Of a stretch of 32,834 nucleotides of DNA, positions 1 through 32,535 are shown piece by piece; the stretch's first letter is position 1, and each line of letters starts with the position of its first letter. A model generated the notes under the pieces. It was not told where the DNA came from. It was given only the letters and a program-made list of their open reading frames with translations, and ran no database searches. The stretch spans positions 57,169-90,002 of the forward strand of contig JAUNVR010000005.1 in NCBI GenBank assembly GCA_030537595.1, written 5' to 3'. Both the position numbers and the translations under genes were made by a program. This DNA is from Eubacteriales bacterium (GTDB taxonomy: Bacteria > Bacillota > Clostridia > Saccharofermentanales > DTU023).

Positions 1-183
1 AAGGAGGGGCGAGTCGATACGCTCTTAATTTCTGCCGCCTTGATGGAAAAAAGTAGTGGAGTTGAAATCAAAAAGGTCAACGACTTAACCTTCGCGACCT
101 TAGATCAGGGTGGGCATTTTTATGTCTTACCAGCAGAGTACTTTGCCCATGGGGCGGACTACACGGCAATTTTACGCTACTAG
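1..183 (+). CDS. C-terminal fragment of an unknown protein
   Basis: An open frame enters from the left edge and runs 60 codons to a TAG stop. The visible part reads as a normal mixed alpha/beta sequence (for example LLISAALMEKSSG and GGHFYVLPAEYFAHG), but I do not recognise the family. Its stop lies in the palindrome CTAG at 180-183, which also supplies the stop of the convergent murI gene, so the two coding ends overlap by four bases. The frame is stop-free throughout and differs from the murI frame, which supports it being a real gene end. No function is proposed. Confidence 0.6.
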   Translation, partial: KEGRVDTLLISAALMEKSSGVEIKKVNDLTFATLDQGGHFYVLPAEYFAHGADYTAILRY

Positions 184-998
184 AACTCGGGCGGAATGGA
201 GAGGTCACGGAAGCGAGTATCCGCATCCGTGCCCGGTAGAAGTTCAGTAATCATATTTAGAAAATTACTCGAGAGGTCGGAGGCATAGAAAATGTCTTCG
301 GCCTCTTTTTGCTCGGCCAAAAGCTTTAGTTCTGAGAGTCCCTCTTTGACGACTGGCACTAGACTCTCGCTGGGATCATACAACTTAAGTCCGGGATAGA
401 GCCGCTGCAAGCTATTTTTCAAAAGGGGATAGTGGGTGCAGCCGAGGAGGAGACTATCGTAGTTTTTGACCAGATCAAGTGGTAGGTGGTACTGAATCGC
501 AGCATCTAGAAAGGCTCCATCTCGGACCCCTTCTTCCAAGAGGGGAACCCAGGTAGGACAGGCCACTGCGCCCAATTCTAAGTCTGGGCGCAGGACCTTT
601 AGACCGCTCTCATAAAGACCGGAATTAATTGTGGTTTTAGTGCCAAGAATCAGCAGGCGTTCGCCAGGCGCAGCGCTTCTGCTGAGTCTTTGGATCACTG
701 GTTGGATAATGCCAAAGATCGGTAGCTCTGGATGCTTTTTGCGCAGCTCAGGGAGGGCTATAGCGGTAGCTGTGTTGCAGGCGATGATTAGGGCCTTAAT
801 CCCGCGGCGAAGTAGAAAGTCTGTGATTTCGCTAGAGAATTTTAGGATTGTTTTTGCTGACTTAGAGCCGTAGGGTGTGCGCGCTGTATCACCAAAATAG
901 ATGAGCTGTTCATGCGGCAGCTCAGCCTTTAAAAAAGGCAGTACTGTAAGGCCACCTAGCCCTGAATCGAAGATCCCGATAGCTGCTGATTTATGCAT
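180..998 (-). CDS. murI: Glutamate racemase MurI
   Basis: This is a cytosolic, cofactor-independent enzyme that interconverts L- and D-glutamate and supplies D-Glu for peptidoglycan. All family landmarks are present in 272 residues, the usual length: FDSGLGG with Asp11 near the N-terminus, YFGDTARTPYG at 34-44, ACNTAT with catalytic Cys74, and GCTHYPLL with the second catalytic Cys187. The start is the ATG at 998; no convincing Shine-Dalgarno precedes it, so translation may depend on the upstream M42 peptidase gene, which ends 27 bases away on the same strand. With the TPR-like gene further upstream it may form a three-gene minus-strand unit. Identification is secure; the operon is inferred from spacing. 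Confidence 0.96.
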   Translation of the reverse strand: MHKSAAIGIFDSGLGGLTVLPFLKAELPHEQLIYFGDTARTPYGSKSAKTILKFSSEITDFLLRRGIKALIIACNTATAIALPELRKKHPELPIFGIIQPVIQRLSRSAAPGERLLILGTKTTINSGLYESGLKVLRPDLELGAVACPTWVPLLEEGVRDGAFLDAAIQYHLPLDLVKNYDSLLLGCTHYPLLKNSLQRLYPGLKLYDPSESLVPVVKEGLSELKLLAEQKEAEDIFYASDLSSNFLNMITELLPGTDADTRFRDLSIPPEF

Positions 999-4152: not shown

Positions 4153-4222
4153 AGAAACGTTACTACTCTACATCTGCTAAGATATAGCAGAGCACATACA
4201 GGTGCGAAATCTTGGAGGTAAA

Positions 4223-5371: not shown

Positions 5372-5397
5372 AATTCCAAATACAGCATATTTGGCGA

Positions 5398-5438
5398 CCG
5401 GCGCCCCTGCCCTTGGCGGAGGGGCGTCGGTTTTTTTT
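5398..5438 (+). terminator. Intrinsic terminator/attenuator inside the nucleoside operon
   Basis: An 11-bp GC-rich stem (arms 5398-5408 and 5420-5430, one G-T pair) with an 11-base loop is followed by eight T residues. It lies between the binding-protein gene and the ATPase gene; the AAGGAGG of the ATPase begins right after the T-run. Partial read-through would give much more binding protein than transporter. Confidence 0.88.
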
Positions 5439-5450
5439 AAGGAGGCGGAG

Positions 5451-9043: not shown

Positions 9044-9045
9044 TC

Positions 9046-9051
9046 TATAAT
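9046..9051 (+). promoter_or_regulatory. Possible internal -10 element before udp
   Basis: TATAAT lies just after the permease stop codon and about 28 bases before the udp start. No clear -35 hexamer is present at 17 bases. It could be an internal promoter that lets uridine phosphorylase be made without the transporter, or a chance match. Confidence 0.3.
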
Positions 9052-9078
9052 AGTCTTATCTAATGAAAGGAATTACTT

Positions 9079-14176: not shown

Positions 14177-14224
14177 ACCAGGATTCTCTACAAGAATAAA
14201 TAATAGAAGCAGAGAGGTTAGAAA

Positions 14225-15523: not shown

Positions 15524-15524
15524 A

Positions 15525-16529: not shown

Positions 16530-16531
16530 CT

Positions 16532-17392
16532 ATGGACATTAAGGTTAGGAATTTATCCGTTAGCTACGGAAGTAAGAAAGTCATACATGATTTTGACTGT
16601 GAGATTCGTGAGGGTGAAATCCTGACGATTATTGGGCCAAATGGTTCAGGCAAGTCAACAATCCTGAAGGCGGTGACAGGTCTTTTGCCTTATCAGGAGG
16701 GGACGGTCGAGCTTTATGGCCGCGATTTGCAGGATTGGAAAACTAAGGAAATCTCACAAAGGATTGCCGTTTTACCGCAAATCCACCAGGCGCCTGGAGA
16801 CTTTACGGTTGAGGAGTTAATCAGTTACGGGCGGATGCCCCACCAGTCTTGGTTTAAGACTGACTCGAAAGAAGATCGAGAAATTGTCGCTTGGGCGATG
16901 GAAACTACTGGGGTAAAAGAATTTGCAAAGCGCAAAATTCACCAGCTTTCTGGAGGTGAATTACAAAGGGTCTGGTTGGCCTGTACCCTAGCCCAAAAGC
17001 CGCGCATTCTCTTTCTTGACGAACCGACCACTTATCTAGACATCGCTCACCAGCTGGAGATTATGCATCTGGTGCGAGATCTTTGCGATAAAGAGGGAAT
17101 TGGCATTGTGATGGTGCTCCATGACCTCGGTCAGGCCCTCGATGTCAGTAATCGGATTATCGTCATCCAGGATGGGCATAAGTATAGCGATGGAGCAGCA
17201 GAAGACGTAATCAATTGTCAGATGCTGCGTGAAGTCTATGAGGTTAACTGTGACCTGGTTTCAGTGCACAGCCGGCCGCGGCCTTTAATCTCTTATCGCT
17301 TTGACCAAAGACCTGGGCATTATCATCACCACCACCATCACTGTCATTGTGGAGAAAGCAGACAGCAGGGTGTGGTCCTAGAAAATAACTAA
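16532..17392 (+). CDS. FepC/BtuD-type ABC ATPase with His-rich tail
   Basis: The cytoplasmic ATPase of the importer, 286 residues. Walker A GPNGSGKS spans 35-42, the signature LSGGE 139-143, Walker B ILFLDEP 159-165 and the switch His is in VMVLHD. All catalytic residues are intact. Beyond the usual domain end it has an unusual tail, GHYHHHHHHCHCGES at about 262-276, with eight His and two Cys in a dozen residues, a strong potential metal-binding site. A His-rich tail also occurs on the NifD-like subunit two positions away. This may sense, store or hand over Ni, Co, Zn or Fe; which metal is not shown. Confidence 0.92.
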   Translation: MDIKVRNLSVSYGSKKVIHDFDCEIREGEILTIIGPNGSGKSTILKAVTGLLPYQEGTVELYGRDLQDWKTKEISQRIAVLPQIHQAPGDFTVEELISYGRMPHQSWFKTDSKEDREIVAWAMETTGVKEFAKRKIHQLSGGELQRVWLACTLAQKPRILFLDEPTTYLDIAHQLEIMHLVRDLCDKEGIGIVMVLHDLGQALDVSNRIIVIQDGHKYSDGAAEDVINCQMLREVYEVNCDLVSVHSRPRPLISYRFDQRPGHYHHHHHHCHCGESRQQGVVLENN

Positions 17393-17445
17393 GATTTGAT
17401 TAATCATTATCTGTTCTAAGTAAAAGGAAAACTTAAGGAGTTAAG

Positions 17446-18996
17446 ATGGCAGTTGAGAATTTAGGTGAAAAATATTTAAGTCGGGCAAAGAAGCTCTCGG
17501 AAGTGACAGAGATTTACGATGTAAATCCACTTTCCGAGGCGCTCTTTCCGGGGAGCCATTGCCCGCTCTTTGGAGCCCTGTTGGCAATCAAAGAAATTTC
17601 TGGAGCGGCGACTTTAGTCGTCGGCAGCGATGAGTGTACATACTATTCGAAGTCAATGGCAATGGGCTCACCGGAGTTTGGCGAGCAGGCAGAATACTGC
17701 TACTCCCTAGTCCTCGATCAGGCGGACATTAGTTTCGGTTGCCAGGCTAAGCTGAGCGAAGCGATTCGGGAAATTGTCGAGAGCACAAAATTCGAAGTAA
17801 TTTTTGTTGTCACGACATGCCTAGTCGAGTTGATCGGCGATGACTTGGATAGCGTCTGCGAGCAGCTGGAAGCAGAGCTGGGGATTAATTTACCGATCGT
17901 GCATACCGAGCACTTTAAGTGTGAAAATCACCTGCCCGGCCTAGAGCGCGTAATGGCAGCTTGTGCTGAACTAATGACAGAGCCAAAGGAGCAGCGCAGC
18001 GCAGATCAGGCACGCAGAATTAACCTCTTAGGTCACCGCCACGGCGATTTTGAGCAGTCAGAATTGGCCGAGTATCTGGATCGGGCTGGAATTGAAATTC
18101 ATCTAGTCCTGCCCTCTGCTGCAACTGTTGCCGAAATCCGAGCTGCGGCCGAGGTCGATCTAAACCTGGTGACTGACGCAATTGGCCTGGCATTGGCAAA
18201 GGAGATGGAAGCTGAATTCAAGATTCCTTACCTCTACTTTGACCGCTTTGTGACTCCCGAGACAATTACTGCAGCATATGCCAGGCTCGAGGCTGAATTA
18301 TTTACTAAGCAAGGCCTGAGTCTGCCGAGTGAATTAAAAGATTGGCTGGAAAATAAGGCAGCAGAACTGCGTGAGCAGGAAGCTAAGCTACGTCCTCGAC
18401 TCGAGGGTTTAAGCTTCATCTATGGCAACACTCCGCTGGTCGCCTTGGAATACAATGCGTATCTCAGCGAGCTGGGTTTACATCCGGCCTTAATTCAACT
18501 TTCGCGCTTGAATGAAGATGATCTTGTCTACCGCGAGCGGATTCTTAAAGCTTGTGATCCTTATGTGACTAAGAATGCCAATATTGCGCCCTTACAGCCG
18601 ATTTATGACATCTTGAAGCCGGACTTTTACTTCGGGCATGAGTTTGCAGAAAAACTGCGCAAGAAGGGCATAGTTCTAATGGCGATGGATCGCCTGGGTA
18701 AGCTCTATGGCTATCAGCTGACCTCAGCCCTTTTGGAATACCTGAGTGAGGGCTTAGCAGCAAGAGATAAACTTTTATCGGCTAAGCAGCATTTAGCTGA
18801 AGCTCAGGCAGCTGGACATCCAGGCGCCAAAGCTCCGGGCGGGCATCCCGGTGGACATCCAGGCGGACATCCCGGTGGACACCCTGGTGGGCACCCGGGT
18901 GGGCATCCGGGCGCTAGACCTGGCATGGCCTCTCCAGTCGAGAGTAAGAAGCTGAGCGGAGTCCGTTTAGTTAAAAGTAGAAAAGAGGCCGAATAA
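17446..18996 (+). CDS. NifD-like nitrogenase-superfamily subunit with GHPG repeat tail
   Basis: A 516-residue alpha-type subunit of the nitrogenase/DPOR superfamily. Three cysteines fall at the positions of the NifD P-cluster ligands: Cys39 in GSHCPLFGA, Cys64 in SDECTYYS and Cys125 in VTTCLVELIGDD, so an Fe-S cluster is expected. The FeMo-cofactor cysteine appears replaced: LNLVTDAIG aligns with NifD's LNLVQCHRS, giving Asp244. The C-terminus carries one separate GHPG and then six tandem GHPG units (466-489), a flexible His-rich metal-binding tail absent from classical NifD. An AAGGAG site precedes the ATG at 17446, and the NifK-like gene begins directly after the stop. The protein probably forms a complex with it and receives electrons from the NifH-like protein. 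The substrate is unknown. Confidence 0.88.
   Translation: MAVENLGEKYLSRAKKLSEVTEIYDVNPLSEALFPGSHCPLFGALLAIKEISGAATLVVGSDECTYYSKSMAMGSPEFGEQAEYCYSLVLDQADISFGCQAKLSEAIREIVESTKFEVIFVVTTCLVELIGDDLDSVCEQLEAELGINLPIVHTEHFKCENHLPGLERVMAACAELMTEPKEQRSADQARRINLLGHRHGDFEQSELAEYLDRAGIEIHLVLPSAATVAEIRAAAEVDLNLVTDAIGLALAKEMEAEFKIPYLYFDRFVTPETITAAYARLEAELFTKQGLSLPSELKDWLENKAAELREQEAKLRPRLEGLSFIYGNTPLVALEYNAYLSELGLHPALIQLSRLNEDDLVYRERILKACDPYVTKNANIAPLQPIYDILKPDFYFGHEFAEKLRKKGIVLMAMDRLGKLYGYQLTSALLEYLSEGLAARDKLLSAKQHLAEAQAAGHPGAKAPGGHPGGHPGGHPGGHPGGHPGGHPGARPGMASPVESKKLSGVRLVKSRKEAE
18814..18912 (+). repeat. 12-base tandem repeat encoding GHPG
   Basis: Six consecutive 12-base units (18841-18912) each encode Gly-His-Pro-Gly, and one further copy lies at 18814-18825. 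The units differ at silent positions (CAT or CAC, all four Pro codons, GGT or GGC), so the peptide has been kept while the DNA diverged. This argues against a recent slippage expansion. Confidence 0.9.
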
Positions 18997-20199
18997 ATGA
19001 GTGCATTAACTAGATTGTTACCACTGCCCTCAGACCGTATGGGCGTACTTTGGAATCTTTTAGCAATTCAGGACAGCTATGTCATCGAATATGGCCCAGC
19101 CGGCACCACTCACTTTGGTATCGGGCCGCTCGGTCAGCTAAAAATTCAGCCACGTGGCCGCTACTTCGTAACTCACATGGATGAGGGCGACGTAGTCATG
19201 GGCGACAGCTCGAGACTCGAGCGTGCGGTCATGGAAATTGACCGCGATCACAAGCCGGAACATATCTTTATCGTCGGCTCCAGTATCTCTTCCACGATTG
19301 GTACTGACCTAGAGGGTATCGTTTACTACCTCCAGGACCAGGTCCAGGCACAGCTCCACATCTTTGATAGCGGTGGCTTTAAGGGCGATATGCTGGACGG
19401 CATGGCTGATGTTTATAAATCATTGGCTGAACTGGTTCGTGAAAGTGAAGTGGAAGCAGTGCCAGCAAGTGAAAAGTCTGCTAGCTATAATATTCTCGGT
19501 GCTTCCCCGGACCATTTCCGTCTGAGCTCAGACTTAAACGAAATCAAGCGCGTGCTAAACGAGGCCTATGATCTCGAGGCCGCCACCACCTATGTCTTTG
19601 GTGGTAAAATCCAAGATTTTGACCGTGCAGCAGGGGCAGAGTTTTCCTTGGTTTTAAGAGAAGCCGCCCTACCTTTGGCCGAGGCTTTAAAAGAAAAGTA
19701 TGATGTACCCTACCTCTTAGTTGACTTTTATGGCTACCAGGGCTGCCGCTCGGTCCTCGAGGCAATCGAGCCTATTCTGGGCCGCAGTCCCAATCCAGAG
19801 TTCATGCAAGAGCTGAGTGAACGCCAGTCTGAGATTGCCCTATTTCAAATGTCGCGGCGCCGGATGGGTAAGGAACTAAAGCTTTATAGCGTCGGGACAG
19901 AAGAGTTTAATCGTGGTCTGAGCCTGGCCTTTGCTGAGCTCGGCCTAGAATTCGCAGAACAAATCGAACATGTGGAGCCTGAAACTGAGCGTTTAGCAAA
20001 GTTGGCAGGCTGGCAGCAGGGACTGGTTTTCGCCGACAGCGAAAGCTTGCATCGGATGGATCCTTCCAATTATGGAGTGCTGACTTCATTCCCCTGGCTG
20101 AAGCGTTCGCAACACGCTGAGCACTTGCCCTTTATGGGGGTACGGGGGATGGATTTCCTCTACGAGTGCCTCAGTAATTATATCTTTCAAATAGTGTAA
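18997..20199 (+). CDS. NifK-like nitrogenase-superfamily subunit without cluster cysteines
   Basis: A 400-residue beta-type partner of the NifD-like protein, starting directly at the preceding stop codon. The fold is indicated by FVTHMDEGDVVMGDSSRLER, which resembles the NifK TEDAAVFGG region, and by IFIVGSSISSTIGTDLEG, which resembles STTCMAEVIGDDL. In my by-eye alignment all three P-cluster cysteines are gone: GSQGC reads GPAGT (near Thr37), the second is near Tyr56, and the third is Ser96. Only two cysteines remain (in YQGCRS and YECLSN). The cluster would then be held by three NifD-like cysteines and perhaps one non-cysteine ligand, loosely like the Asp in BchB of DPOR; Thr37, Thr38 or His39 are candidates. 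Function is inferred from context. Confidence 0.82.
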   Translation: MSALTRLLPLPSDRMGVLWNLLAIQDSYVIEYGPAGTTHFGIGPLGQLKIQPRGRYFVTHMDEGDVVMGDSSRLERAVMEIDRDHKPEHIFIVGSSISSTIGTDLEGIVYYLQDQVQAQLHIFDSGGFKGDMLDGMADVYKSLAELVRESEVEAVPASEKSASYNILGASPDHFRLSSDLNEIKRVLNEAYDLEAATTYVFGGKIQDFDRAAGAEFSLVLREAALPLAEALKEKYDVPYLLVDFYGYQGCRSVLEAIEPILGRSPNPEFMQELSERQSEIALFQMSRRRMGKELKLYSVGTEEFNRGLSLAFAELGLEFAEQIEHVEPETERLAKLAGWQQGLVFADSESLHRMDPSNYGVLTSFPWLKRSQHAEHLPFMGVRGMDFLYECLSNYIFQIV

Positions 20200-20220
20200 A
20201 AATTTTCCAGGAGGAAAACA

Positions 20221-20763
20221 ATGAAAATTCATGTAGTATATTCAAGTTTAACCGGCTGCACAAAGCAAGTCGCGGAAGCAATCTATGCAGGTTACGAAGG
20301 CGAAAAAGCAATCTCCAAGGTCAGCGATAAGCCAGATCTTAGTGATGCCGATATCGTTGCCTTAGGTTATTGGGTCGACAAGGGTGGCCCGAATGAAGAG
20401 GTGCAAAAATTCATCTCAGAATTAAGCGGTAAGAAGGTCTTTGTCTTTGCAACCTTGGCCTACTTTGCTGATTCAGAACACGGCTTCCAGAGTGTCTGGC
20501 GTGGCGTTGAAGCAGTTAAAGCTGCTGGTAACGAAGTCATCGGACACTATGTCTGTAATGGTGCACTCGCTCCGGCCTTAATCGAAAAATTCAAGAAGAT
20601 GGCTGCTGAGGGCAGTGGCAATCACCATGCCTTTACTCCGGAAAAGGGTGTGCGCTACGAGATTATGAAGAACCACCCGACCCCCGCAGAGCTGGCTCTC
20701 GGGAGTGAACGTTTCAACGAGCGAGTTGAGTTAAATAGAAGAATTGCCGAACTCCAGGCCTAA
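20221..20763 (+). CDS. Flavodoxin-family protein
   Basis: A 180-residue flavodoxin-like electron carrier. The FMN phosphate loop is clear, SSLTGCTKQVAEAI starting at Ser8, matching the T/S-x-T-G-x-T pattern. Central strands are DIVALGYWVDKGGP and KKVFVFATLAY, where the isoalloxazine ring would sit. It is longer than classical flavodoxins (about 140-150), with a helical C-terminal extension. An AGGAGG lies six bases before the ATG. It is the last gene before a strong terminator, so it is the natural electron donor for the NifH-like protein; an auxiliary reductase role is also possible. Confidence 0.88.
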   Translation: MKIHVVYSSLTGCTKQVAEAIYAGYEGEKAISKVSDKPDLSDADIVALGYWVDKGGPNEEVQKFISELSGKKVFVFATLAYFADSEHGFQSVWRGVEAVKAAGNEVIGHYVCNGALAPALIEKFKKMAAEGSGNHHAFTPEKGVRYEIMKNHPTPAELALGSERFNERVELNRRIAELQA

Positions 20764-22307: not shown

Positions 22308-23714
22308 ATGCGGAAAGATTCATATGCTGAGGTCATGGCAGCAAAGGAAGAGATTATCAAAGCAGCAGTAGGTCTGGATTACAGCCAGTTCGAGCGCGGG
22401 CTCGGCTTTGATTATGCTGGCCTGATGGATTCTGTACCCTATACGGGAGCTGAAGTCCGTGAGATTTTAGCGGGTCTGGGGGTCGGCAATACACCGCTGA
22501 TTGAAGCTAAAAATATTACCCGTTTACTGCGCAAATTTTCCGCGCCAGGTTATGGGGCGAGAATCGTAATTAAGGACGAGGCCCAAAATCCCTCCGGTAG
22601 CTTTAAGGCGCGCCGCGCCGCCCTTTCAGTCTATGAGGCGAAAAGACTCGGCTACGAGGGTGTAGTTGCGGCAACTTCTGGAAACTACGGGGCCGCAGTC
22701 GCAGCCATGGCTGCGAAGCTTAATTTGCGCTGTATTGTGGTGCAGGAGTGCTATGACTCACGTGGCATTGGCCAACCTGAGATTTTAGAAAAGCAGAGAG
22801 CTTGTGAGGCTCTGGGTGCCGAGGTTGTCCAACTTACTGTCGGGCCAGAACTTTTTTATGAGACCCTGTGCATTTTAAAAGAGACTGGTTTTTACAATGC
22901 ATCACTTTACACCCCCTCAGCAATCCGGGGTATTGAGAGTCTGGGCTATGAGCTAATTCAGCAAAGCCGCGAACTCTTTGGCAAGGATCCAGACTATGTG
23001 ATAGCGACCAATGCTGGGGGTGGGAACCTGAGTGGTACTGCTCGCGGGATTCGTGCAGCCCAGGCGGAAGGGGCAAAGGTCTATGCCGCTTCAGTTGATT
23101 TAAGTGGTTTACACATGGCCTCGGATCTAGACTTTAACCGCAAATCCTTTACCACAGGTCATACTGGCTTTGGTATCCCCTTTACAGTCCGCCCCGATCG
23201 CTCCGATGTGCCGCGCAACGCTGCTCGGCCTTTGCGCTATCTGGATGGCTATCTCCTAGTGAAGCAGGGCGAGGTTTTCTACCTGACCGAATGCTTAGCA
23301 GCACTCGAGGGGCTAGAGCGTGGGCCAGCTGGAAATACTTCCTTAGCTGCGGCCTTTGCCCTCGCCAGAACACGGCCTGAAGATGAATTGATTATTGTCC
23401 AGGAGACTGAATACACCGGAGCTGGCAAGCACCCGATGGCTCAATTGAGCTTTGCTCGCCAGCAGGGTATTGACTTGAGCTTTGGTGACCCAGATACGGA
23501 AGTGCCGGGCCAGTCCATAGTTCTGCCGGATAGTCCAGCCGCGCTTAAGCTGCGGGAGTATCCCTTGGAGAACTTACGCCTGTCCGCGCTTCGCCATTGC
23601 TTAGCTGGACGTTCCGTGGCTAGTTTAGCAGCTGAGGAGCTAAGCTATTTAGCCGAGGAATTAGGCCTCGAGCGAGAAGCTTTAGATCCGCTTTTAGAGC
23701 AGTTTGAAGGATAA
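22308..23714 (+). CDS. ortB: 2-amino-4-ketopentanoate thiolase, beta subunit
   Basis: The PLP-binding subunit of the thiolase that cleaves 2-amino-4-oxopentanoate with CoA to acetyl-CoA and D-alanine, 468 residues as expected. It has a fold-type II (threonine-synthase-like) PLP domain: the Schiff-base Lys100 lies in NPSGSFKARRAAL, followed by ATSGNYGAAVAAMA, which binds the phosphate, and TNAGGGNLSG. The ATG at 22308 is preceded by GGGAGGAGG inside the end of the Ord-OrtA gene, one base after its stop. OrtA is supplied by the fused C-terminal domain of the preceding protein, so the complex here must include the whole fusion. Confidence 0.94.
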   Translation: MRKDSYAEVMAAKEEIIKAAVGLDYSQFERGLGFDYAGLMDSVPYTGAEVREILAGLGVGNTPLIEAKNITRLLRKFSAPGYGARIVIKDEAQNPSGSFKARRAALSVYEAKRLGYEGVVAATSGNYGAAVAAMAAKLNLRCIVVQECYDSRGIGQPEILEKQRACEALGAEVVQLTVGPELFYETLCILKETGFYNASLYTPSAIRGIESLGYELIQQSRELFGKDPDYVIATNAGGGNLSGTARGIRAAQAEGAKVYAASVDLSGLHMASDLDFNRKSFTTGHTGFGIPFTVRPDRSDVPRNAARPLRYLDGYLLVKQGEVFYLTECLAALEGLERGPAGNTSLAAAFALARTRPEDELIIVQETEYTGAGKHPMAQLSFARQQGIDLSFGDPDTEVPGQSIVLPDSPAALKLREYPLENLRLSALRHCLAGRSVASLAAEELSYLAEELGLEREALDPLLEQFEG

Positions 23715-23725
23715 AGGAGGATAAG

Positions 23726-24097
23726 ATGCCGAGACCGGATGATTTTGAAAAACGTAGAGCTCACTTAAGAGAATTGAGTGACGAGGAAATTTATGAACGC
23801 TTCTGGCAGCTTGCGAACCAATTAGTTGATCCGCTGTTGGAGGCTGGAAAGATTTATACAACCCCCGCAATCGAGCGCTCAATCCTCCTCCGCATGGGTT
23901 TTTCCTCGGTTGATGCAAAGCCCCTAGTCGACCAAATGATTGAGCGAGAGCTTTTAAACCATGGTGCAGGACATCTAATTTGGCGACTCGGGCAGCATTG
24001 GGATATCGACTATCTGGAAGCCGGGCAGCGTCTCCTGAAGGGAGAGGGCTGGACTGAGCTGGCAGAAATCTTTGGCCAGGAGGTGCAGGATGACTAA
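23726..24097 (+). CDS. oraS: D-ornithine 4,5-aminomutase, small subunit
   Basis: A 123-residue protein matching the small subunit of the B12- and PLP-dependent ornithine aminomutase in size and position. It has RPDDFEKRRAHLRELSDEEI at the start and LVDPLLEAGKIYTTPAIERS, IERELLNHGAGHLIWRLG further on. It stabilises and caps the large subunit, OraE. AAAGGAGG lies eight bases before the ATG. The coding end overlaps the oraE start by eight bases, giving coupled synthesis of the two subunits. Confidence 0.93.
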   Translation: MPRPDDFEKRRAHLRELSDEEIYERFWQLANQLVDPLLEAGKIYTTPAIERSILLRMGFSSVDAKPLVDQMIERELLNHGAGHLIWRLGQHWDIDYLEAGQRLLKGEGWTELAEIFGQEVQDD

Positions 24098-26348
24098 GTC
24101 AAAAGCAGGTCAAAAGATCGACAAAGGCTTGGGCAAGAACCCCTTAAAGGCCAATCAACGCATGGACATTCGCGATGTCTTGGCAGGCTTGGAGGACTAC
24201 CATCCGGCCAGGCATCCCTGGCATTGGCGTGAGGGCCGCAACGAGCCACGGAAAATTGGTGACTTCGAGTATTACGAAAGTTCAAAGCCGGTCAAAGCCT
24301 CAGTCCCGCTTTCCGGTTCTCGGGGCTTTGGCTATATTGATCCGCAGCCGGATTGCGTGATCACTACAGAAATAGCTTCGGGGCGCTTCGAAGATGATAT
24401 TCGCAGAATGCGGATGGCAGCATGGAATGGTGCCGACCACATCATGGTTATTCGGACTGCCGGCCAGTCCCACATTGACTCCTTACTGGAGGGCACGACC
24501 CAGGGTATTGGCGGGATTGCGGTTACACGTAAGCAGTGCCGGGCGACCAGACGCGCCCTCGATTGGATTGAAGAAGAGGTCGGCAGACCTTTGAACTTCC
24601 ACTCCTATGTTTCCGGGGTGGCTGGCCCAGACATTGCTGTAATGTTTGTCGAAGAGGGCGTTTCCGGGGTCCACCAGGATCCGCAGTACAATGTTCTATA
24701 CCGGAACATTAATATGCTGCGCTCATTTGTCGATGCCTGTGAGTCAAAGAAAATTCTCGCCTATGGAGAAATGCTACAAATTGACGGAGCCCATAATGCG
24801 AATGCGACAGCAATGGAAGCCTGGAAGGTGATGCCGGAGCTGATGGTGCAACACGCGATAAACTCCGCCTTCTCACGGCGCGTCGGAATTAAGCCGGAGA
24901 ACATTGCACTCTCGACGGTACCACCGACGGCACCGCCAGCGCCTTGTATGCGCTTAGACTTACCCTATGCGGTAGCCTTGCGCGACCTCTTTAGAGATTA
25001 CAAGATGCGGGCTCAGATGAATACTAAGTACATGGAATCGGATATGCGGGAGGCGACTGTGACCCACAGTTTAAACCTAGTCATCTCGCGTCTGACCTCA
25101 GCAGATATTCAATCGACGATTACTCCTGATGAGGGGCGTAATGTGCCCTGGCACTATAACAATATCGCAGCTTTGAATACTGCAAGACAGGCCTTAACAG
25201 GTCTGGATGGCTTCCGCAAAATGGTTAAGATTGACCGCTCAGGTGAGCTCGGTAAAGAGGCCAGGGAGCTGAAGGAGCGTGCCATCCTCTTTATGGAAGA
25301 AATGCTCGAAAGCGGCGGTTACTTCTCGGCGGTTGAAGCAGGCTTCTTCATCGATTCCGGACTCTATCCAGAGCGTAAGGGTGATGGAATTGCCAGAGAG
25401 CGTGAGGGTGGAATTGGGGCGAATGCTCTGTTCTACCGGGCGGAGGATTATTTTGCCCCGGTCTCAGTGCACTACGGCAATAACAATTTACCTGAAGGCA
25501 TTGAAAGAGCTGAAGACGCAATCGGTGGAGATACCTTCCAATGTCCTGAAAAAATCGTCTTTATTGATGAATTAGACGAGGATGACAACGTCAATAAGAG
25601 GATTGAGGCAAAGCAGAAGTACTACGATCAGCACAACCTAATTCGGCCGGAGGTCGAGTGGCTGGCAGATGGGGTCGTCGTTCTCCAACTCTTCCTCCCC
25701 CTCGACGCACACAGAGCAGAATTTGCGGCGATGGCAATTGGTGAAAAGCTCGGCCTAAAGGACTGCGTTGTAATCAATAAGCAAGTCTGCCACCCGGCTG
25801 AGGGCTGCCTGCTGGAAATGAAGGGAGTAGTCGACTTTGACATTGATATTAATGACTTAGTCATTCCTGAAAAAGTTGAAAATCTCTCTGAAAAAGAAAT
25901 CCGCGCTGCGATTCACGAGCAGCCAATGACTGTGGTTGCGGCAACTGTAGGTGAGGACGAGCACTCGGTCGGCTTAAAAGAAATATTGGATATCAAACAT
26001 GGCGGGATTGAGGGCTTTGGGATTAAGTACCACTATCTTGGCACCTCCTGCCCGGTGGACAAATTGGTCGATGCGGCAATTGAGACTAATGCGGATGCAA
26101 TTTTACAGTCGACAATTATTTCGCATGACGATATCCACATTAAAAACATGCAGCGCTTGGCCCAAATCTGCGTTGAACGTGGGGTGCGCGACCGCTTGAT
26201 TCTGGTCGGCGGTGGTACTCAGGTCAACAATGAGATGGCCTTAGATGCGGGCTTAGACGTCGGCTTTGGCCGCGGCTCCAAGGGTATCGATGTTGCTTCC
26301 TTCCTGGTCAAAAAGCGCCGTGAGAAAGCAGCAGAAGCAGAAGAATAA
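24090..26348 (+). CDS. oraE: D-ornithine 4,5-aminomutase, large subunit
   Basis: The catalytic subunit (752 residues) converts D-ornithine to 2,4-diaminopentanoate by radical chemistry with adenosylcobalamin and PLP. A large barrel region is followed by the C-terminal Rossmann B12 domain, with the base-off motif Asp623-x-His625-x-x-Gly628 (DEHSVG). Lys636 lies 11 residues after the cobalt-binding His. This is the same spacing as His618 and Lys629 in the characterised clostridial enzyme, where that Lys binds PLP. ILVGGGTQVNNEMA closes the B12 fold. I chose the ATG at 24090 because AGGAGG (24078-24083) stands six bases before it; it overlaps oraS by eight bases. Confidence is high. Confidence 0.96.
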   Translation: MTKSKAGQKIDKGLGKNPLKANQRMDIRDVLAGLEDYHPARHPWHWREGRNEPRKIGDFEYYESSKPVKASVPLSGSRGFGYIDPQPDCVITTEIASGRFEDDIRRMRMAAWNGADHIMVIRTAGQSHIDSLLEGTTQGIGGIAVTRKQCRATRRALDWIEEEVGRPLNFHSYVSGVAGPDIAVMFVEEGVSGVHQDPQYNVLYRNINMLRSFVDACESKKILAYGEMLQIDGAHNANATAMEAWKVMPELMVQHAINSAFSRRVGIKPENIALSTVPPTAPPAPCMRLDLPYAVALRDLFRDYKMRAQMNTKYMESDMREATVTHSLNLVISRLTSADIQSTITPDEGRNVPWHYNNIAALNTARQALTGLDGFRKMVKIDRSGELGKEARELKERAILFMEEMLESGGYFSAVEAGFFIDSGLYPERKGDGIAREREGGIGANALFYRAEDYFAPVSVHYGNNNLPEGIERAEDAIGGDTFQCPEKIVFIDELDEDDNVNKRIEAKQKYYDQHNLIRPEVEWLADGVVVLQLFLPLDAHRAEFAAMAIGEKLGLKDCVVINKQVCHPAEGCLLEMKGVVDFDIDINDLVIPEKVENLSEKEIRAAIHEQPMTVVAATVGEDEHSVGLKEILDIKHGGIEGFGIKYHYLGTSCPVDKLVDAAIETNADAILQSTIISHDDIHIKNMQRLAQICVERGVRDRLILVGGGTQVNNEMALDAGLDVGFGRGSKGIDVASFLVKKRREKAAEAEE

Positions 26349-26403: not shown

Positions 26404-27792
26404 GTGAAGAAAGTGGACTTATTACTGGCGGAAATTGGTTCAACTACAACTGTGATGAACGCCTTTACCGATCTCGATAGTGATGATCCAAAGTTCTTGG
26501 GCCAGGGGCAGTCGCACACGACAGTGCTCGAGGGAGATGTTTCGATTGGCTTGCGTTTGGCGCTAGAGGACTTAGAGGCAAAGTTGCCCGGCTGGTCTTA
26601 CGCCGGTGCCGAGATGCTGGCGACCTCCTCAGCAGCTGGAGGCCTTCGGATGACAGTCCACGGTTTAGTTTACGACATGACCGTTAGGGCGGCTCGTGAA
26701 GCAGCCCTAGGCTCTGGAGCAGTTGTCACGATGGTCACCGCTGGGCGCCTGCGCCGCGGTGATTTAAAAAAGATCCAAGAACTCAAGCCAAAGATGTTCT
26801 TTTTAGCCGGGGGCACAGATTACGGGGAACGCGATACGGCAATCTATAATTACGAGCTGCTGATGAGTGTAATGCCAGAAATCCCCCTAGTCTACGCCGG
26901 GAATATCGAAAACCATGAGGAATTGACTTTGCTCGGCGAAGAGGCGGGCTATAAGCTCTACTTATCGGAAAATGTTTATCCCTCCTTGGATCAGTTGAAC
27001 ATCGAGCCGGCTCGCCACTTAGTGCATCAGGTCTTTGAAGAGCATATTGTGCACTCCCCGGGCATGGGGAAGATTCGTGAGCTGGTCTCCGGGCACATTC
27101 TGCCAACCCCTGGCGCAGTTATGGAAGCGACCTTGTTGGCGGCTGAAATGCTCGGTGATGTAATGGTTTTCGATGTTGGCGGGGCGACCACGGACCTGCA
27201 TTCTGCGACCGCAGGAAGCCCGACAATTGAAGCAATCCAAAGTCAGGCCGAGCCTTTTGCGAAACGAACGGTTGAAGGAGACCTGGGCCTGTACGTCAAT
27301 CGGCAGAGCTTAATTGAGCAGTTTAGCCCGGAAGAGCGGAAGGCAAAACTGCCGGAGGCGGAAAGGTTTTTAAAAGAAGCTAAGGAAATTCCCACTGATG
27401 CAGGGGAGCGAGACTTCCTCGAAGCCTTGACGATTAAAGCCTGCGATGTAGCTTTAAAGCGGCACGCCGGCAGATTAGTCAATCTTTATGGGCCGACCGG
27501 CCGACAAACCATAGCCAAGGGCAAGGACCTAAGCCAAATAAAATATGTGATTGGGACGGGTGGTGCCTTGACCCGCCTGCCACATGGGCGCAAAATCTTA
27601 GAGCGTGCTTTGACCGGCCAAAAAAGGGACCTCCTCCTACCGACGGAGGAGCTAAGTTACTTACTGGATCAGGATTACATCATGGCTGCGCTCGGGGTTT
27701 TGGCCAAGCGGCACCCACGGGCGGCTCGTATCCTGCTCTTGAAATCCCTGGGTCTGCCCTTGGATTTAGCCCAGAACGCAGTAGCCGATTGA
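26404..27792 (+). CDS. GlmL/MutL-family ATPase of the aminomutase cluster
   Basis: A 462-residue protein of the GlmL/MutL family of actin-like ATPases, not the DNA-repair MutL. These proteins sit beside B12-dependent mutases and are thought to help reactivate them or exchange damaged cofactor. Visible nucleotide-binding elements are AEIGSTTT (9-16), VFDVGGATTDL (about 255-265) and VIGTGGALTRL (about 382-392), the phosphate and adenosine loops of this fold. MLATSSAAGGLRM and FFLAGGTDYGERD are also family-like. The GTG start at 26404 has only a weak ribosome site. Its place right after oraE suggests that it serves ornithine aminomutase; this is inferred, not shown. Confidence 0.88.
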   Translation: MKKVDLLLAEIGSTTTVMNAFTDLDSDDPKFLGQGQSHTTVLEGDVSIGLRLALEDLEAKLPGWSYAGAEMLATSSAAGGLRMTVHGLVYDMTVRAAREAALGSGAVVTMVTAGRLRRGDLKKIQELKPKMFFLAGGTDYGERDTAIYNYELLMSVMPEIPLVYAGNIENHEELTLLGEEAGYKLYLSENVYPSLDQLNIEPARHLVHQVFEEHIVHSPGMGKIRELVSGHILPTPGAVMEATLLAAEMLGDVMVFDVGGATTDLHSATAGSPTIEAIQSQAEPFAKRTVEGDLGLYVNRQSLIEQFSPEERKAKLPEAERFLKEAKEIPTDAGERDFLEALTIKACDVALKRHAGRLVNLYGPTGRQTIAKGKDLSQIKYVIGTGGALTRLPHGRKILERALTGQKRDLLLPTEELSYLLDQDYIMAALGVLAKRHPRAARILLLKSLGLPLDLAQNAVAD

Positions 27793-27915: not shown

Positions 27916-28977
27916 ATGACATATCCATCACTCTTAATAGACCGTAAGAAGTTCCAGGAAAACGCCAGTAAAATGGTCGAATTTCTAAAGTCAAAAAACC
28001 TAGACTACCATCTGGTGACTAAGGCCTTCTGCGCCTGGCCACCTTTAATCGAGGCTTTACATGAGCTTGGGATCAGAAACTTTGCCGATTCACGAATCAT
28101 TAATTTAAAACGGCTGAGACCATATTCAGACTCGAGCCTCTTAACGCGGATTCCGCAGATTTCAGAGGCGGCCGAAGTCGTCGAATTTGCAGATATTTCA
28201 CTAAATTCAGAACTGGCAACAATCCAAGCCTTAAACGCAGCAGCCAAGGCTCAGAATAAAGTCCATAAAATTATTGTGATGCTGGAGATGGGCGATTTGC
28301 GTGAGGGTATGCCACTCAAGCAGGTGCCCTATATCTTCCCGGAAATTATGGACTTAGAGCAGATTGAAGTAATTGGGATTGGCGCAAACTTTAATTGCTA
28401 TGGTGGGGTCATTCCCGACTTTAACTTGCTGCACGCCCTAGCCGTAGTGCGTGAGGACTTAGAGCACGACTATGAACGTAAGTTCCCGCTGATCTCCGGC
28501 GGTAACTCGGGCAGCCTGCACCTTCTCTTGGCAGGTCAATTACCACCAGAGATTAATCACCTAAGGATTGGCGAGGCCTACCTACTGGGTCGCGAGACCT
28601 CCTACGGTAAACGCGTCCTGGACCTACATGAGGATGTGTTCACCCTGCGGAGCGAAATCATCGAGATCTATGACAAGCCTTCAGTGCCCCGGGGTAAACG
28701 CGGCTTGAATGCAGCCGGGGAAAGGACTGAGTTTATTGATCAAGGAATTATTAAACGCGGAATTTGCGCGATGGGTGGACAAGATGTAGTTCCCAAGGGT
28801 TTAAGATCGCTTTTACCAGGGGTTGAGCTACTCGGTAACTCCCAGGATCATACAATATTTAAGTTGGAGGGTGCAGGAGCGACACTAGATGTTGGTGACC
28901 AGCTCGACTTCAGCTTAAATTACGTCAGTTTAGTTCAGGCTTTCACCTCAGAGTACGTGAATAAGGAATTAATTTAG
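27916..28977 (+). CDS. orr: Ornithine racemase
   Basis: A PLP-dependent racemase of the alanine racemase-like N-terminal barrel family, 353 residues. It provides D-ornithine for OraSE from L-ornithine. The PLP Lys is Lys36 in YHLVTKAFCAWP; later blocks are FADSRIINLKRL, VMLEMGDLREGM, ISGGNSGSLHLL and LRIGEAYLLGRETSYG, all typical of Orr. The ATG at 27916 follows AAGGAGG; the open frame a little further upstream is not needed. A 123-base gap with direct repeats separates it from the GlmL-like gene, so it may also have its own promoter. Related YhfX-type proteins share the fold, but the cluster context makes ornithine the likely substrate. Confidence 0.92.
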   Translation: MTYPSLLIDRKKFQENASKMVEFLKSKNLDYHLVTKAFCAWPPLIEALHELGIRNFADSRIINLKRLRPYSDSSLLTRIPQISEAAEVVEFADISLNSELATIQALNAAAKAQNKVHKIIVMLEMGDLREGMPLKQVPYIFPEIMDLEQIEVIGIGANFNCYGGVIPDFNLLHALAVVREDLEHDYERKFPLISGGNSGSLHLLLAGQLPPEINHLRIGEAYLLGRETSYGKRVLDLHEDVFTLRSEIIEIYDKPSVPRGKRGLNAAGERTEFIDQGIIKRGICAMGGQDVVPKGLRSLLPGVELLGNSQDHTIFKLEGAGATLDVGDQLDFSLNYVSLVQAFTSEYVNKELI

Positions 28978-29072
28978 AGAAGCCGGCCAAAGAGAATTAG
29001 GTCGGTGAGAATTAACTAAGCTAAATGCGGCTGAATTAAGAGCTCATTGATTATTACTTGAAAGGAGTCCGC

Positions 29073-30218
29073 ATGACTTATAGTAGAGAAAAGTCGCGAA
29101 CTTGGGTTGAGGTCTCGCGGAGCAGATTGTTATATAACTTGCGGGCAATCCGCAAGCAAGTACCAGCCAGCGCAAAGTTTTGTGTCGTGGTTAAAGCGGA
29201 TGCCTATGGCCATGGCGCTGAGTTTGTGGCCGGAGTAGCCGAAGCCTATGGTCTGGCAGATTTTTTTGCAGTTGCCAATCTTGATGAGGCAGAGCGCCTG
29301 CGCCAGGCAGGGATTAAATTGCCGATCTTAATCATGAGCCATGTGGCAGTTGAAGAAGTAGAGCAGTTATTAGACTTAAATTTACGCCCGACCATAGCTA
29401 GCCTGCGTGAGGCAAGGGCCTATGCCGAGGCCTTAAAGAAATTAGGCAAGAGCTTAAAAGTCCATCTAAAATTAGACACGGGAATGGCTCGACTCGGCAT
29501 CTTATGTCACGAAAAAGAGAAGCAGGCGGTGCTTGATGAACTTAGCGCGATTGGCGAGCTGCCCGAAATCGAAATTGAGGGCATCTTCTCCCACTTTGCT
29601 TCCGCCGGCAGTGACCCAGAATACCAGAAATTACAGTACGCGCGTTTTATTGGGATTTGTAATGGGCTTGCTGAACGCGGGCTTGAGATTCCAATCCGTC
29701 ACATTGCAAATTCCTCAACGATTGTGAACCACCCTGAGATGTCCTTAGACATGGTTCGGGCAGGGATCATTGTCTACGGCAGCTATGAAAGTTATCTCGA
29801 CTATAGAATCCTCCCACTTAAGCCAGTCATGGATTACCAGTCGCGGATTTCAGAAATTCGTCAGATTGAAGCAGGTGAGACAGTTGGCTACGGAAGAACC
29901 TGGACCGCAGAGCGAGCGACTACCCTGGCAGTAATTGAGGCTGGATACTCAGATGGCCTGCCGCGAAGTCTGTCCAATTGTGGTGTAGTTTCAATTCGCG
30001 GCCAGCATTGTCCGATTGTCGGCCGGGTCTGCATGGACCGGAGCATGCTGGATGTTACGGATTTACCGGAGGTCAGAATCGGCGACATAGCACATTTATT
30101 TGGGGGAGCAGAGCCTGATTTCATCAGCGCAGATGAGCAGGCAGCGCTGGCCGGCACAATCTCCTACGAGCTATTTTGTAATGTAAATCGGAGAGTTCCC
30201 AGGATCTACGTTGACTAA
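29073..30218 (+). CDS. alr: Alanine racemase
   Basis: A 381-residue PLP enzyme with all Alr landmarks: Lys41 in VVVKADAYGHG forms the internal aldimine, LKLDTGMARLG follows in the barrel, the opposite-face catalytic Tyr lies in EAGYSDGLPR, and GRVCMDRSMLDVT and SYELFCNVNRRVPR mark the C-terminal domain. The ATG at 29073 follows AAAGGAG; an upstream in-frame TTG is rejected. Alr usually serves cell-wall D-Ala supply. Here it follows orr on the same strand, and the thiolase step releases D-alanine, so it probably also converts that product to L-alanine for further metabolism. Both roles are compatible. Confidence 0.95.
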   Translation: MTYSREKSRTWVEVSRSRLLYNLRAIRKQVPASAKFCVVVKADAYGHGAEFVAGVAEAYGLADFFAVANLDEAERLRQAGIKLPILIMSHVAVEEVEQLLDLNLRPTIASLREARAYAEALKKLGKSLKVHLKLDTGMARLGILCHEKEKQAVLDELSAIGELPEIEIEGIFSHFASAGSDPEYQKLQYARFIGICNGLAERGLEIPIRHIANSSTIVNHPEMSLDMVRAGIIVYGSYESYLDYRILPLKPVMDYQSRISEIRQIEAGETVGYGRTWTAERATTLAVIEAGYSDGLPRSLSNCGVVSIRGQHCPIVGRVCMDRSMLDVTDLPEVRIGDIAHLFGGAEPDFISADEQAALAGTISYELFCNVNRRVPRIYVD

Positions 30219-30225
30219 TTTGCGC

Positions 30226-30255
30226 TCACAGTTGAAGATATAAGTTGAACTGTGA
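30226..30255 (+). other. Short inverted repeat between alr and the next gene
   Basis: TCACAGTT (30226-30233) and AACTGTGA (30248-30255) form an 8-bp inverted repeat with a 14-base spacer, just ahead of the GAGGAG ribosome site of the following gene. There is no T-run. It could be an operator or a weak RNA hairpin. Confidence 0.35.
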
Positions 30256-30272
30256 AAGAAGAGGAGTCAACG

Positions 30273-31493
30273 ATGCGTCGCAAACTGCGCGTTTTTAGAG
30301 AGCAATTTTTCAAGATAGCTGCCTTTGTTATTTTAGGTGCAGTTCTCTTTTGGGTGTATAAAAGGCGAGTAGTCGCGGCCGAGTATATCCCGGCGGAATA
30401 CGTTCGTGTGGCCTTAATTATTGCCCTTTTACTTTATCTCATATATGGTATCTCACTCTTGCAAGGTCTCGGCCATAGCGGCTGGTTAAGACGCTTTGAT
30501 CCGGGTGATCCGGATAGCCTGAACGAGCTGGCTGAGATGAAGCGCTATAAGCTACCGGCAAAGTATGCAGCCCTAGTCCACGATGAGGGTGATGAACTTT
30601 TAGAAAACATTCATCTATACTTGCGCTCGCGGGGTTTTAGCGAGCAGATTAGGCGAAGCTTCGGCCTGGTATATGAGCGGAAGCTCTTTGGTGTCGATAG
30701 CCATTTAAGAGAAAGGTGGCAGCGGGTAATTGTCCTCTACCGCCCCCTTTTAAATGTAATTGTCGTCGACCAGATGCTGAAAGAAGCGATTGATTATATT
30801 GATCGCAGCAGCCCCTATGCAAATATGAATCAGTACATCCTTTTAACTGATATGGAAAATGATCAGGAAGTGCTTTCTGCGGCTGCCGGTGTGGTTAACT
30901 TCCTCGGTAAATTGAATAAGTCCTACCTCAGTCCAATCCTAATTGATCAAAATGAAGGGCGGCTCTTTTTCCCTTCAGACCGTTCTTTAATTAGTTTTAG
31001 ACAAAAACTCTTCCACGATTTTTTCCGCTACGATTTCGTGCTTTTCCTAAAGCGTGAAAGAAAGTCTAAATTAAATGCTCAGTCAGCTAAGCCGATTCGA
31101 GATAAAGAGCCTAGGCTAGGGCGACAAGAGCGTCAGCCCAGGGCAGGTGGCGGACGGCCCAACGCAGCCGATCAGCGGGGCCGAACTGGCTCAGCTCGAG
31201 CCTCCCGTGGCCCTGGCCAGCCTGGGCCTAGACCAAGTCCTGCTACAGCAAAGGAGCGCAAAGCCTTAGCGCAAAAAGAGCTAAGTCGAGAGCGCCTGAG
31301 AGCTGGAAGGCCTGGAGCCGGACTCCAAGCTGGAGCAGATTCTCAGAGCCGAAAAAATCCTCGGCCCGGGCGAGCTGGAAAGCTTCCTAGCTCGCGTCAG
31401 GCGGAAGATCTTAGAGCAGTCCAGCCCCAGCCTGAGAGAGCCCCATTTATAGATTCAGCAAGTAATCAGCGAGCAGCAGAGCGTGATGAATAA
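30273..31493 (+). CDS. Two-helix membrane protein with basic disordered tail
   Basis: A 406-residue protein that I do not recognise. The ATG at 30273 follows GAGGAG by six bases. Two membrane helices lie near the N-terminus (FKIAAFVILGAVLFWVYKRR and VALIIALLLYLIYGISLL), then a soluble alpha/beta domain of about 200 residues (RVIVLYRPLLNVIVVDQML, YILLTDMENDQEV), probably cytoplasmic. From about residue 265 the sequence becomes a long Arg/Pro/Gly/Ala/Gln-rich tail with RGG- and RPG-like pieces, likely disordered and able to bind RNA or membranes. Another frame of the tail region also looks protein-like, so an old frameshift is possible. The last bases overlap the metzincin-like gene. Function is unknown. 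Confidence 0.75.
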   Translation: MRRKLRVFREQFFKIAAFVILGAVLFWVYKRRVVAAEYIPAEYVRVALIIALLLYLIYGISLLQGLGHSGWLRRFDPGDPDSLNELAEMKRYKLPAKYAALVHDEGDELLENIHLYLRSRGFSEQIRRSFGLVYERKLFGVDSHLRERWQRVIVLYRPLLNVIVVDQMLKEAIDYIDRSSPYANMNQYILLTDMENDQEVLSAAAGVVNFLGKLNKSYLSPILIDQNEGRLFFPSDRSLISFRQKLFHDFFRYDFVLFLKRERKSKLNAQSAKPIRDKEPRLGRQERQPRAGGGRPNAADQRGRTGSARASRGPGQPGPRPSPATAKERKALAQKELSRERLRAGRPGAGLQAGADSQSRKNPRPGRAGKLPSSRQAEDLRAVQPQPERAPFIDSASNQRAAERDE

Positions 31494-32535
31494 GCCTGAT
31501 TTAGATCGAGTCGAGCAGCCAGAAAGGCTGAGCTACATACACCCTGAGAGTAGGAAGTTTGAAGTTTTCGGTCGGCCTAAAACACGTCACCCAATTCAAC
31601 TCGAGTTCAGCAAGGAAGGTTTATTACTAAGGCTTTATTTAGTCCTGAATCAAAGGGCTGCTACAGAGCTGCGCGGGCAAAGCCTCTGGAGTCTTGCGAG
31701 AGCAGGGATAGAGAGGGTCTGGCAGCGGGACTTTCTGTTGAGCCCAGAGCTTGAAGAAGCTTTTTTAAACTTTGTTCAGCGGCAGCAGCCAGCAGACCTA
31801 AGTTCTGCAGTCCTCTACCTTGATGAGCGCGTTAAATTAGCCCTCGATGAGGCCAAAGCCTTAGGCCAGGCCGAAGTCTTGCCAAAGCTTCCACTGAGAC
31901 TTGAGCTAAAAGTTGCCGGACCGACAGCTTCTCCGACGCTACATTTAATTAAAAGTATAGTGACTGGGCAAAGGCGAGCTGTGAGAATGTACTTTACCCC
32001 CCTCGAGATCTTTCCCTCCCATGTTGGTTCCGCGCTCTGGCGCAGATTCTGGGGCATCTTTCGTTATGGGCATCTCGAGACCATGGGCTTTAACTGGTCG
32101 CCTGCGGCCCCGGGCTATATTGTCCTCAATAGCAAATTGAATGAAGGGCGGATTGGCCGTGTAGCGGCTCATGAACTCGGGCATATCCTGGGTCTGGGCG
32201 ATGCCTATGCAGCACCCTACCGCTTTTTTTACGAGCATCCGGGCTCAGAAAACTATTTGATGAATTCGAATGGTGAGCTAGCAGAAGAAGAGTTTATTAT
32301 GTTTCTGCGTGCCCATACAGTTAATAAGGCACAGTTCTTTCCCTGGCGCTTTTCCTGGGCTCGAGTCAAGTCGGGGGCGAAAGAAGAAGCAAATTATTAC
32401 CGGCGCAAAGCCAAGGCTGCTAAAATTCAACGTCAGGCGCAAAGAGCGAAGCGCAGAGCGAGGCGAAATCAGCCCGCAGACTTAGACAGAAGGCCTGACA
32501 AAGAGGCGCCGTCTGAGCAAGTAGAAAAGCTCTAA
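31486..32535 (+). CDS. Cytosolic metzincin-like putative zinc protease
   Basis: A 349-residue protein without signal peptide or membrane helix. The zinc site HELGHILGLGD (His229, Glu230, His233, Asp239) is the metzincin HExxHxxGxxD form, and 20 residues later NYLMNSNG supplies a plausible Met-turn (Met259). The first 200 residues are an unassigned alpha/beta region, and the last 50 are very basic (KAAKIQRQAQRAKRRARR). The ATG at 31486 overlaps the membrane-protein gene by eight bases, with a GTG directly before it as an alternative; no strong ribosome site is present, so coupling is likely. A secreted protease would need an export signal, so it may act inside the cell with its partner. Confidence 0.78.
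   Translation: MNKPDLDRVEQPERLSYIHPESRKFEVFGRPKTRHPIQLEFSKEGLLLRLYLVLNQRAATELRGQSLWSLARAGIERVWQRDFLLSPELEEAFLNFVQRQQPADLSSAVLYLDERVKLALDEAKALGQAEVLPKLPLRLELKVAGPTASPTLHLIKSIVTGQRRAVRMYFTPLEIFPSHVGSALWRRFWGIFRYGHLETMGFNWSPAAPGYIVLNSKLNEGRIGRVAAHELGHILGLGDAYAAPYRFFYEHPGSENYLMNSNGELAEEEFIMFLRAHTVNKAQFFPWRFSWARVKSGAKEEANYYRRKAKAAKIQRQAQRAKRRARRNQPADLDRRPDKEAPSEQVEKL

Follow-up and report, generated by a model that had tools for sequence, protein, structure and literature searches.

By its sequence, the gene alr, which closes the ornithine gene cluster of the window (the whole stretch of 32,834 nucleotides that was analysed), codes for an intact canonical alanine racemase, and alanine racemisation is predicted for its product. 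We propose that alr, at the 3' end of an ornithine operon, is probably the single housekeeping racemase of the cell and does double duty; with orr before it, it would make up an ancestral pair. The enzyme activity, the direction of flux and the co-transcription of orr and alr are what we infer. Both the Alr enzyme and the ornithine pathway are known, and it is the family-wide, mostly single-copy, operon-embedded arrangement that is the variant.

The alanine racemase gene and its surroundings

The mechanical open reading frame of alr runs from a TTG at 29058 to 30218, and the RBS-like sequence AAAGGAG precedes the ATG at 29073, which shows that the start chosen in the initial annotation was correct. 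Its statement that alr directly follows orr on the same strand likewise holds, the two genes lying 95 nt apart (Table 1). No terminator-like site was found in this gap by a simple scan; a promoter scan gave 10 sigma-70-like sites, where 10.9 are expected in shuffled sequences, and is of no evidential use. The Alr product matches the alanine racemase model TIGR00492 with 355.5 bits against a cut-off of 168 and carries PF01168 as its N-terminal and PF00842 as its C-terminal domain. Its closest solved structures are alanine racemases (4y2w, 273 bits, and 4lus of C. difficile, 246 bits), whereas it scores lower against Bsr and lysine racemase (178 and 164 bits). K41, R140, R229 and Y273, numbered from the ATG at 29073, are invariant in an alignment of nine sequences; going by the roles in the G. 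stearothermophilus enzyme, we take K41 to be the PLP lysine, R140 and R229 to be PLP-site arginines and Y273 to be the catalytic tyrosine. Thus, compared with canonical alanine racemases (TIGR00492; 4y2w, 4lus), the sequence, the two-domain make-up and the active-site residues are the same and only the genomic setting differs.

Table 1. Features of the window, positions counted from its first letter
Feature	Position	Strand	Match or remark
murI, glutamate racemase	180..998	-	TIGR00067 198.8 bits, cut-off 146.65
ord-ortA fusion, 2,4-diaminopentanoate dehydrogenase and thiolase subunit OrtA, 454 aa	20942..22306	+	
ortB, 2-amino-4-oxopentanoate thiolase PLP subunit	22308..23714	+	NF040741 747 bits; start inferred, mechanical ORF from 22266
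oraS, aminomutase small subunit	23726..24097	+	PF16552 158 bits
oraE, D-ornithine 4,5-aminomutase large subunit	24090..26348	+	NF040743 1295 bits; start inferred, mechanical ORF from 24072
GlmL-related ornithine degradation protein (Or-4)	26404..27792	+	NF040744 623.5 bits, cut-off 600
orr, ornithine racemase	27916..28977	+	NF040742 388.1 bits; mechanical ORF from 27898
orr-alr gap, 95 nt	28978..29072	+	No terminator-like site; RBS-like site at its end
alr, alanine racemase, 381 aa	29073..30218	+	TIGR00492, PF01168 and PF00842
Protein without assigned family, N-terminal membrane-type segment (by eye)	30252..31493	+	33 nt after alr
Probable zinc metalloprotease, HELGH	31483..32535	+	Weak M6/M7 matches under cut-off

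Upstream of alr, in an operon-like order, are the genes for Ord-OrtA, OrtB, OraS, OraE, the GlmL-related protein, which is presumably the reactivase of the B12 mutase, and Orr. With orr, oraSE, ord and ortAB all together, this locus holds the full gene set for oxidative ornithine degradation. All enzymes of the ornithine cluster of C. sticklandii and C. difficile (orr, oraS, oraE, ord, ortA and ortB) are shared with the window, which differs in having alr at the 3' end and in the fusion of Ord with OrtA. In the fusion protein both models score over cut-off, NF040740 covering residues 4-342 and NF040739 covering residues 359-449. Ord and OrtA are fused in all 23 family loci that hold both. Among 72 named loci from outside the family, drawn from the best 80 of 550, 61 could be assessed and none shows the fusion. 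The fusion could possibly allow channelling from the dehydrogenase to the thiolase.

The start of orr is taken as the ATG at 27916, which follows AGGAGG. The window Orr scores under the NF040742 cut-off of 480, compared with 542 bits for the Orr of Acetoanaerobium. Its function is probably still that of Orr, as neither the PLP lysine nor the aligned arginines have been lost. Its AF2 model (pLDDT 93.8) has the Alr fold and matches alanine racemases over almost the full length with a TM of about 0.7. Alanine racemases, other fold-III racemases and aldolases rank highest in the structural comparison, and YhfX is the sole PDB sequence match.

Downstream of alr, the protein encoded at 30252..31493 has no NCBIfam or Pfam match. 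Its homologue is kept with alr in a congeneric genome, G001 (48% identity), where the homologue of the metalloprotease gene likewise follows (50% identity). Elsewhere in the window a nitrogenase-like set lies just upstream of the ornithine genes at 13412-20763, with NifH (308 bits) and two Oxidored_nitro proteins, accompanied by a FecCD-type ABC transporter and a flavodoxin; this set was not found in the 40 family stretches compared. A BMP-type ABC transporter followed by uridine phosphorylase at 4202-9825 is probably a nucleoside uptake unit, and the transporter matches putative B6 transporter models under cut-off.

Linkage of alr to orr and to ornithine genes

The family set comprised 37 genomes, our own and 36 relatives, which were compared for OraE and Alr; 40 family stretches were mapped with the window proteins and the tally was made by hand. 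OraE is present in 29 family genomes, and in 24 of these the cluster ends with orr followed immediately by alr, counting three in which contig ends split the cluster (G006, G015 and G031) and one in which alr matches as two pieces (G013). Four others are not judgeable: in G018, G020 and G033 the contig stops at or before orr, the sole alr found in G020 belonging to another branch and standing elsewhere, and in G035, whose short contig was only partly covered, no alr was found. The one genome that differs is G001, which has orr-alr on another contig than oraE. Since the orr-alr neighbourhood of the window recurs across the family, the arrangement is not due to chance. The initial annotation had held that a single alr, its independent expression and a lack of linkage in relatives would speak against its proposal; the alr of our genome is indeed single, and the last point is contradicted by these counts. 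An Orr homologue followed by alr is also present in all eight family genomes without an OraE-grade match, although the contig of G029 ends within alr. These eight genomes together with the split in G001 indicate that the family alr is tied first to orr, and the best explanation is that orr-alr is the stable core of the unit. The Orr-adjacent Alrs form one clade on the Alr tree (support 100/99) that requires a single change; therefore, the orr-alr linkage was one ancestral event followed by inheritance. G030 carries an additional alr that belongs to a different branch.

G001 is of the same genus as our genome and is 68% complete. Its orr-alr pair has the flanks of the window, namely, two permease genes, uridine phosphorylase and an acyltransferase upstream and the homologues of the two genes described above downstream, with the acyltransferase adjoining orr and no ornithine block there. 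On the other contig, the OraE fragment is 91% identical to that of the window and the GlmL-like fragment 88% (73% in a second piece; the gene is without its middle), whereas Orr and Alr reach 66% and 63%. The gap of 22 points between the GlmL-like protein and Orr compares with at most 2 points in nine close pairs and 5 to 13 points in three distant ones among 12 other family pairs, Orr being the lower. Either the ornithine block has a separate history in the genus of G001 or the G001 contig is misbinned. These values hint at two modules, one from Ord to Or4 and the other orr-alr.

Outside the family we used an even draw of 398 genomes from the phylum, 65 of which, our own included, have OraE over cut-off. 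In five of the 64 non-family OraE genomes (G084, G175, G309, G333 and G440, from four families) alr lies within 5 kb of oraE, where 0.435 are expected (Poisson P 9e-5, treating genomes as independent), and in ten it lies within 20 kb, where 1.4 are expected. In the other 59 the 5 kb around oraE yielded no alr, although contig ends may conceal one in some, and three of the 64 show no PF00842 match at all. Thus, outside the family, alr is not a regular member of ornithine clusters. Four of the five (G309, G440, G333 and G084) have no PF00842 gene other than the cluster alr, and orr was not found in their ornithine-cluster stretches, so that alr is linked to more than orr alone. That Alr replaces Orr in clusters with alr and without orr was considered and is weakened because Orr-length PF01168 proteins are present elsewhere in each of these four genomes. 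In G175 orr is upstream of ord, and the cluster alr and a second copy share 98.7% identity over 1140 bp.

A further sample, overlapping with the others, consisted of 80 named loci, the best 80 of 550, many of them cut by contig ends. Eight of these (L158-L163, L165 and L166) are from family genomes, seven with orr-alr and one cut at orr. Among the remaining 72, alr is present in eight: upstream of ord in L184 and L186, right after orr in L229, L231 and L236, and without orr in L206, L224 and L237, L224 being the same genome as G084. Of 38 rows from outside the family, chosen by hand with the linked ones included on purpose, 12 carry the linked label; they are scattered over the branches of the Alr tree, where the label requires no fewer than 7 changes. 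L186 and L229 sit on long branches of this tree, whose 69 inner branches include 10 that are open; L251, which yielded no Alr sequence, was dropped, and L102 was not counted as linked. Nothing speaks more strongly for a functional tie than this repeated association of alr with ornithine clusters. The view of the initial annotation that alr is a function not always listed with the cluster is a fair one, as alr closes the cluster across the family and recurs elsewhere.

Two other arrangements were observed. In L206 and L224 the ornithine cluster comes after smc-ftsY-like genes and Alr after a GlmL-like gene, and neither Ord nor Orr was found in these stretches. In L143-L151 (G076, G224, G299, G160 and G121, from two families) alr and oraE share a strand, with alr about 14-17 kb farther downstream.

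Orr homologues without PLP-site residues in a sister genus

In the sister genus g2, represented by seven genomes (G002, G008, G014, G019, G023, G027 and G029; loci L094-L099 and L279), an Orr homologue is present in all seven and an OraE match in none. OrtB is absent except from G027, where locus L280 on contig C34 carries separate OrtA and OrtB genes beside an aminotransferase-like gene; this contig ends after OrtB and the rest of the ornithine cluster was not found on it. The g2 rows form one group inside the Orr of the family and are full length, with NF040742 scores of 301-340 bits in the four scanned. By hhalign (97.3% probability), on which the mapping of the g2 residues also rests, K42, R135 and R223 of Orr, numbered on the 359-aa ORF, pair with K41, R140 and R229 of Alr. 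The lysine is kept in 110 of 110 rows from outside g2, which include loci taken twice for one genome. In g2 it is Q in six genomes and K in G029, and in all seven R135 is replaced by G or A and R223 by I or V. The modelled window Orr resembles the Orr/YhfX group of Alr-fold proteins, and the g2 homologue differs by the loss of residues aligned with the PLP site. No description of an Orr without the PLP lysine was found among the literature matches listed, which were available in part.

Mean identity within g2 is 73% for the Orr homologues and 67% for the neighbouring Alrs (15 pairs from six genomes), and dN/dS is 0.087-0.114 for the former and 0.106-0.153 for the latter (five pairs with dS of 0.46 to 1.03). 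As a control, active Orrs of the family were compared with their Alrs, and they too are more conserved (mean 54% and 45% in 10 pairs), with Orr identity at or above Alr identity in 12 of 12 pairs. The higher conservation of the g2 homologue as special evidence is thereby weakened: Alr is the faster protein generally, and the remaining point is that the g2 protein is not relaxed. By ORF call the g2 alr start overlaps the orr stop by one base in five of six loci, L097 being called with a 180-nt gap, and G029 has the same one-base overlap at its junction. Judged from these sequences the g2 protein is probably a retained pseudo-racemase under purifying selection. On the structural model it is conceivable that Orr has an Alr-like dimer surface.

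It may tentatively be suggested, though we consider it doubtful, that Orr and Alr are a functional pair beyond ornithine fermentation, in which the g2 pseudo-Orr would be catalytically dead and would serve, for example, as a heteromeric partner or regulator of Alr, a role that the window Orr may share. If this is true, the pseudo-Orr is co-translated with the only Alr of the cell under selection as strong as that on active Orr. To our knowledge a pseudo-racemase kept beside Alr has not been described for other fold-type III PLP enzymes. The genus is an apparent natural case of one, and it gives a handle on whether Alr has protein partners.

Role of Alr and the fate of alanine

Our genome, that of a small anaerobic bacterium, is 1.55 Mb in 35 contigs and 96% complete, the window being part of contig C34. 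The second alr that the initial annotation proposed to look for was not found: alr is the sole PF00842 gene found in this genome, and PF01168 is present beyond it only in orr and in a 255-aa protein of YggS size. The presence of murI in the window suggests a wall with D-amino acids, for which the single alr would be needed. Since alr is single copy, it is not a specialised last step only.

D-alanine is given as the product of the OrtAB thiolase in an excerpt of PMC3091704, as the initial annotation had it, whereas L-alanine is the predicted product in an excerpt of PMC8803604 and, if that is right, no racemase is needed. The same part of PMC3091704 states that C. sticklandii, an ornithine fermenter, excretes both L- and D-alanine and is without an alanine dehydrogenase gene. 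A table in the accessible part of PMC9815643 contains orr, oraSE, ord and ortAB without alr and gives alanine without stereochemistry. Among the literature matches listed, available in part, no paper was found that describes alr in an ornithine cluster; the founding paper, which may mention alr, lies outside that scope. The ornithine cluster was reportedly first described by Fonknechten in 2009.

The conversion of L-alanine to pyruvate, as had been suggested, is unsupported by our searches, because in our own genome neither an alanine dehydrogenase (PF05222 and TIGR00518) nor a D-alanine transaminase (TIGR01121) over cut-off was found. The only PF05222 match in it (C34:16712-17143) reaches 202 bits against the alanine dehydrogenase cut-off of 391.85 and fits the transhydrogenase PntA better, with 370 bits against a cut-off of 383, neither cut-off being reached. 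TIGR01121 has no match at all in our genome and is over cut-off in 0 of 59 genomes, our own included, and in 1 of 14 control genomes. Every one of the 29 OraE-bearing family genomes has a PF05222 match, and none of the 8 that lack OraE does. Co-occurrence of alanine dehydrogenase with the ornithine pathway was dropped as an argument since our own PF05222 protein fits PntA better, and for the same reason it is no evidence for oxidation of L-alanine. Within the searches made, which covered racemases, alanine dehydrogenase and D-alanine transaminase, the outlets identified for D-alanine are Alr and the wall pathway.

Most likely, Alr is used in both directions. When ornithine is fermented, OrtAB would, as reported, release D-alanine together with acetyl-CoA, and Alr would convert the surplus D-alanine to L-alanine, which could be exported, transaminated or built into protein; without ornithine, Alr would make D-alanine for the wall. 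DadX, paired with DadA, is a catabolic alanine racemase, and like the window Alr it links one alanine enantiomer to catabolism. The difference is that DadX is a second copy running from L to D for DadA, whereas the window Alr is the only copy and would run from D to L; against the DadX model NF002970 it scores 201 bits and does not reach the cut-off of 600. The alr and dadX genes of E. coli are covered in an excerpt of PMC6146663.

It is possible, though rather unlikely, that alr is a wall gene only, without a catabolic role, and that the ornithine genes settled upstream of an existing pair or gene in the family ancestor, the essential alr fixing the place. Such hitch-hiking would agree with the single copy of alr and the presence of murI, with the one origin of the linkage within the family, and with the orr-alr pair being kept where oraE is absent and, in G001, at the same flanks with oraE on another contig. 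Against this stands that alr has repeatedly, and apparently independently, joined ornithine clusters outside the family, that of G175 with its near-identical second copy among them.

The original proposal in full, that Alr is a dedicated last step feeding L-alanine to pyruvate, is improbable. There is no second alr to cover the wall, the PF05222 protein of our genome fits PntA better than alanine dehydrogenase, and TIGR01121 has no match there; yet alr does stand after orr, D-alanine is a reported product, and the sole PF05222 match of a relative that was scored (G007, L276) is an alanine dehydrogenase over cut-off with 484 bits. Of the proposed last step in ornithine fermentation, what stands is the linkage in the family and elsewhere, while the single copy and the pair in all eight family genomes without oraE speak against it. 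Highly improbable is an Alr of broad specificity acting also or mainly on ornithine, to which the Alrs without a nearby orr in L138, L139, L141, L142 (the same as L224), L206 and L237 might point, because the window has its own orr, its Alr scores best against alanine racemases, and Orr-length PF01168 proteins stand elsewhere in the four such genomes examined.

Should OrtAB indeed release D-alanine, as reported, a cell that ferments ornithine must handle it at catabolic flux. A family whose sole Alr stands in the ornithine operon makes the fate of this D-alanine directly testable, and the arrangement would tie the supply of wall precursors to an energy pathway.
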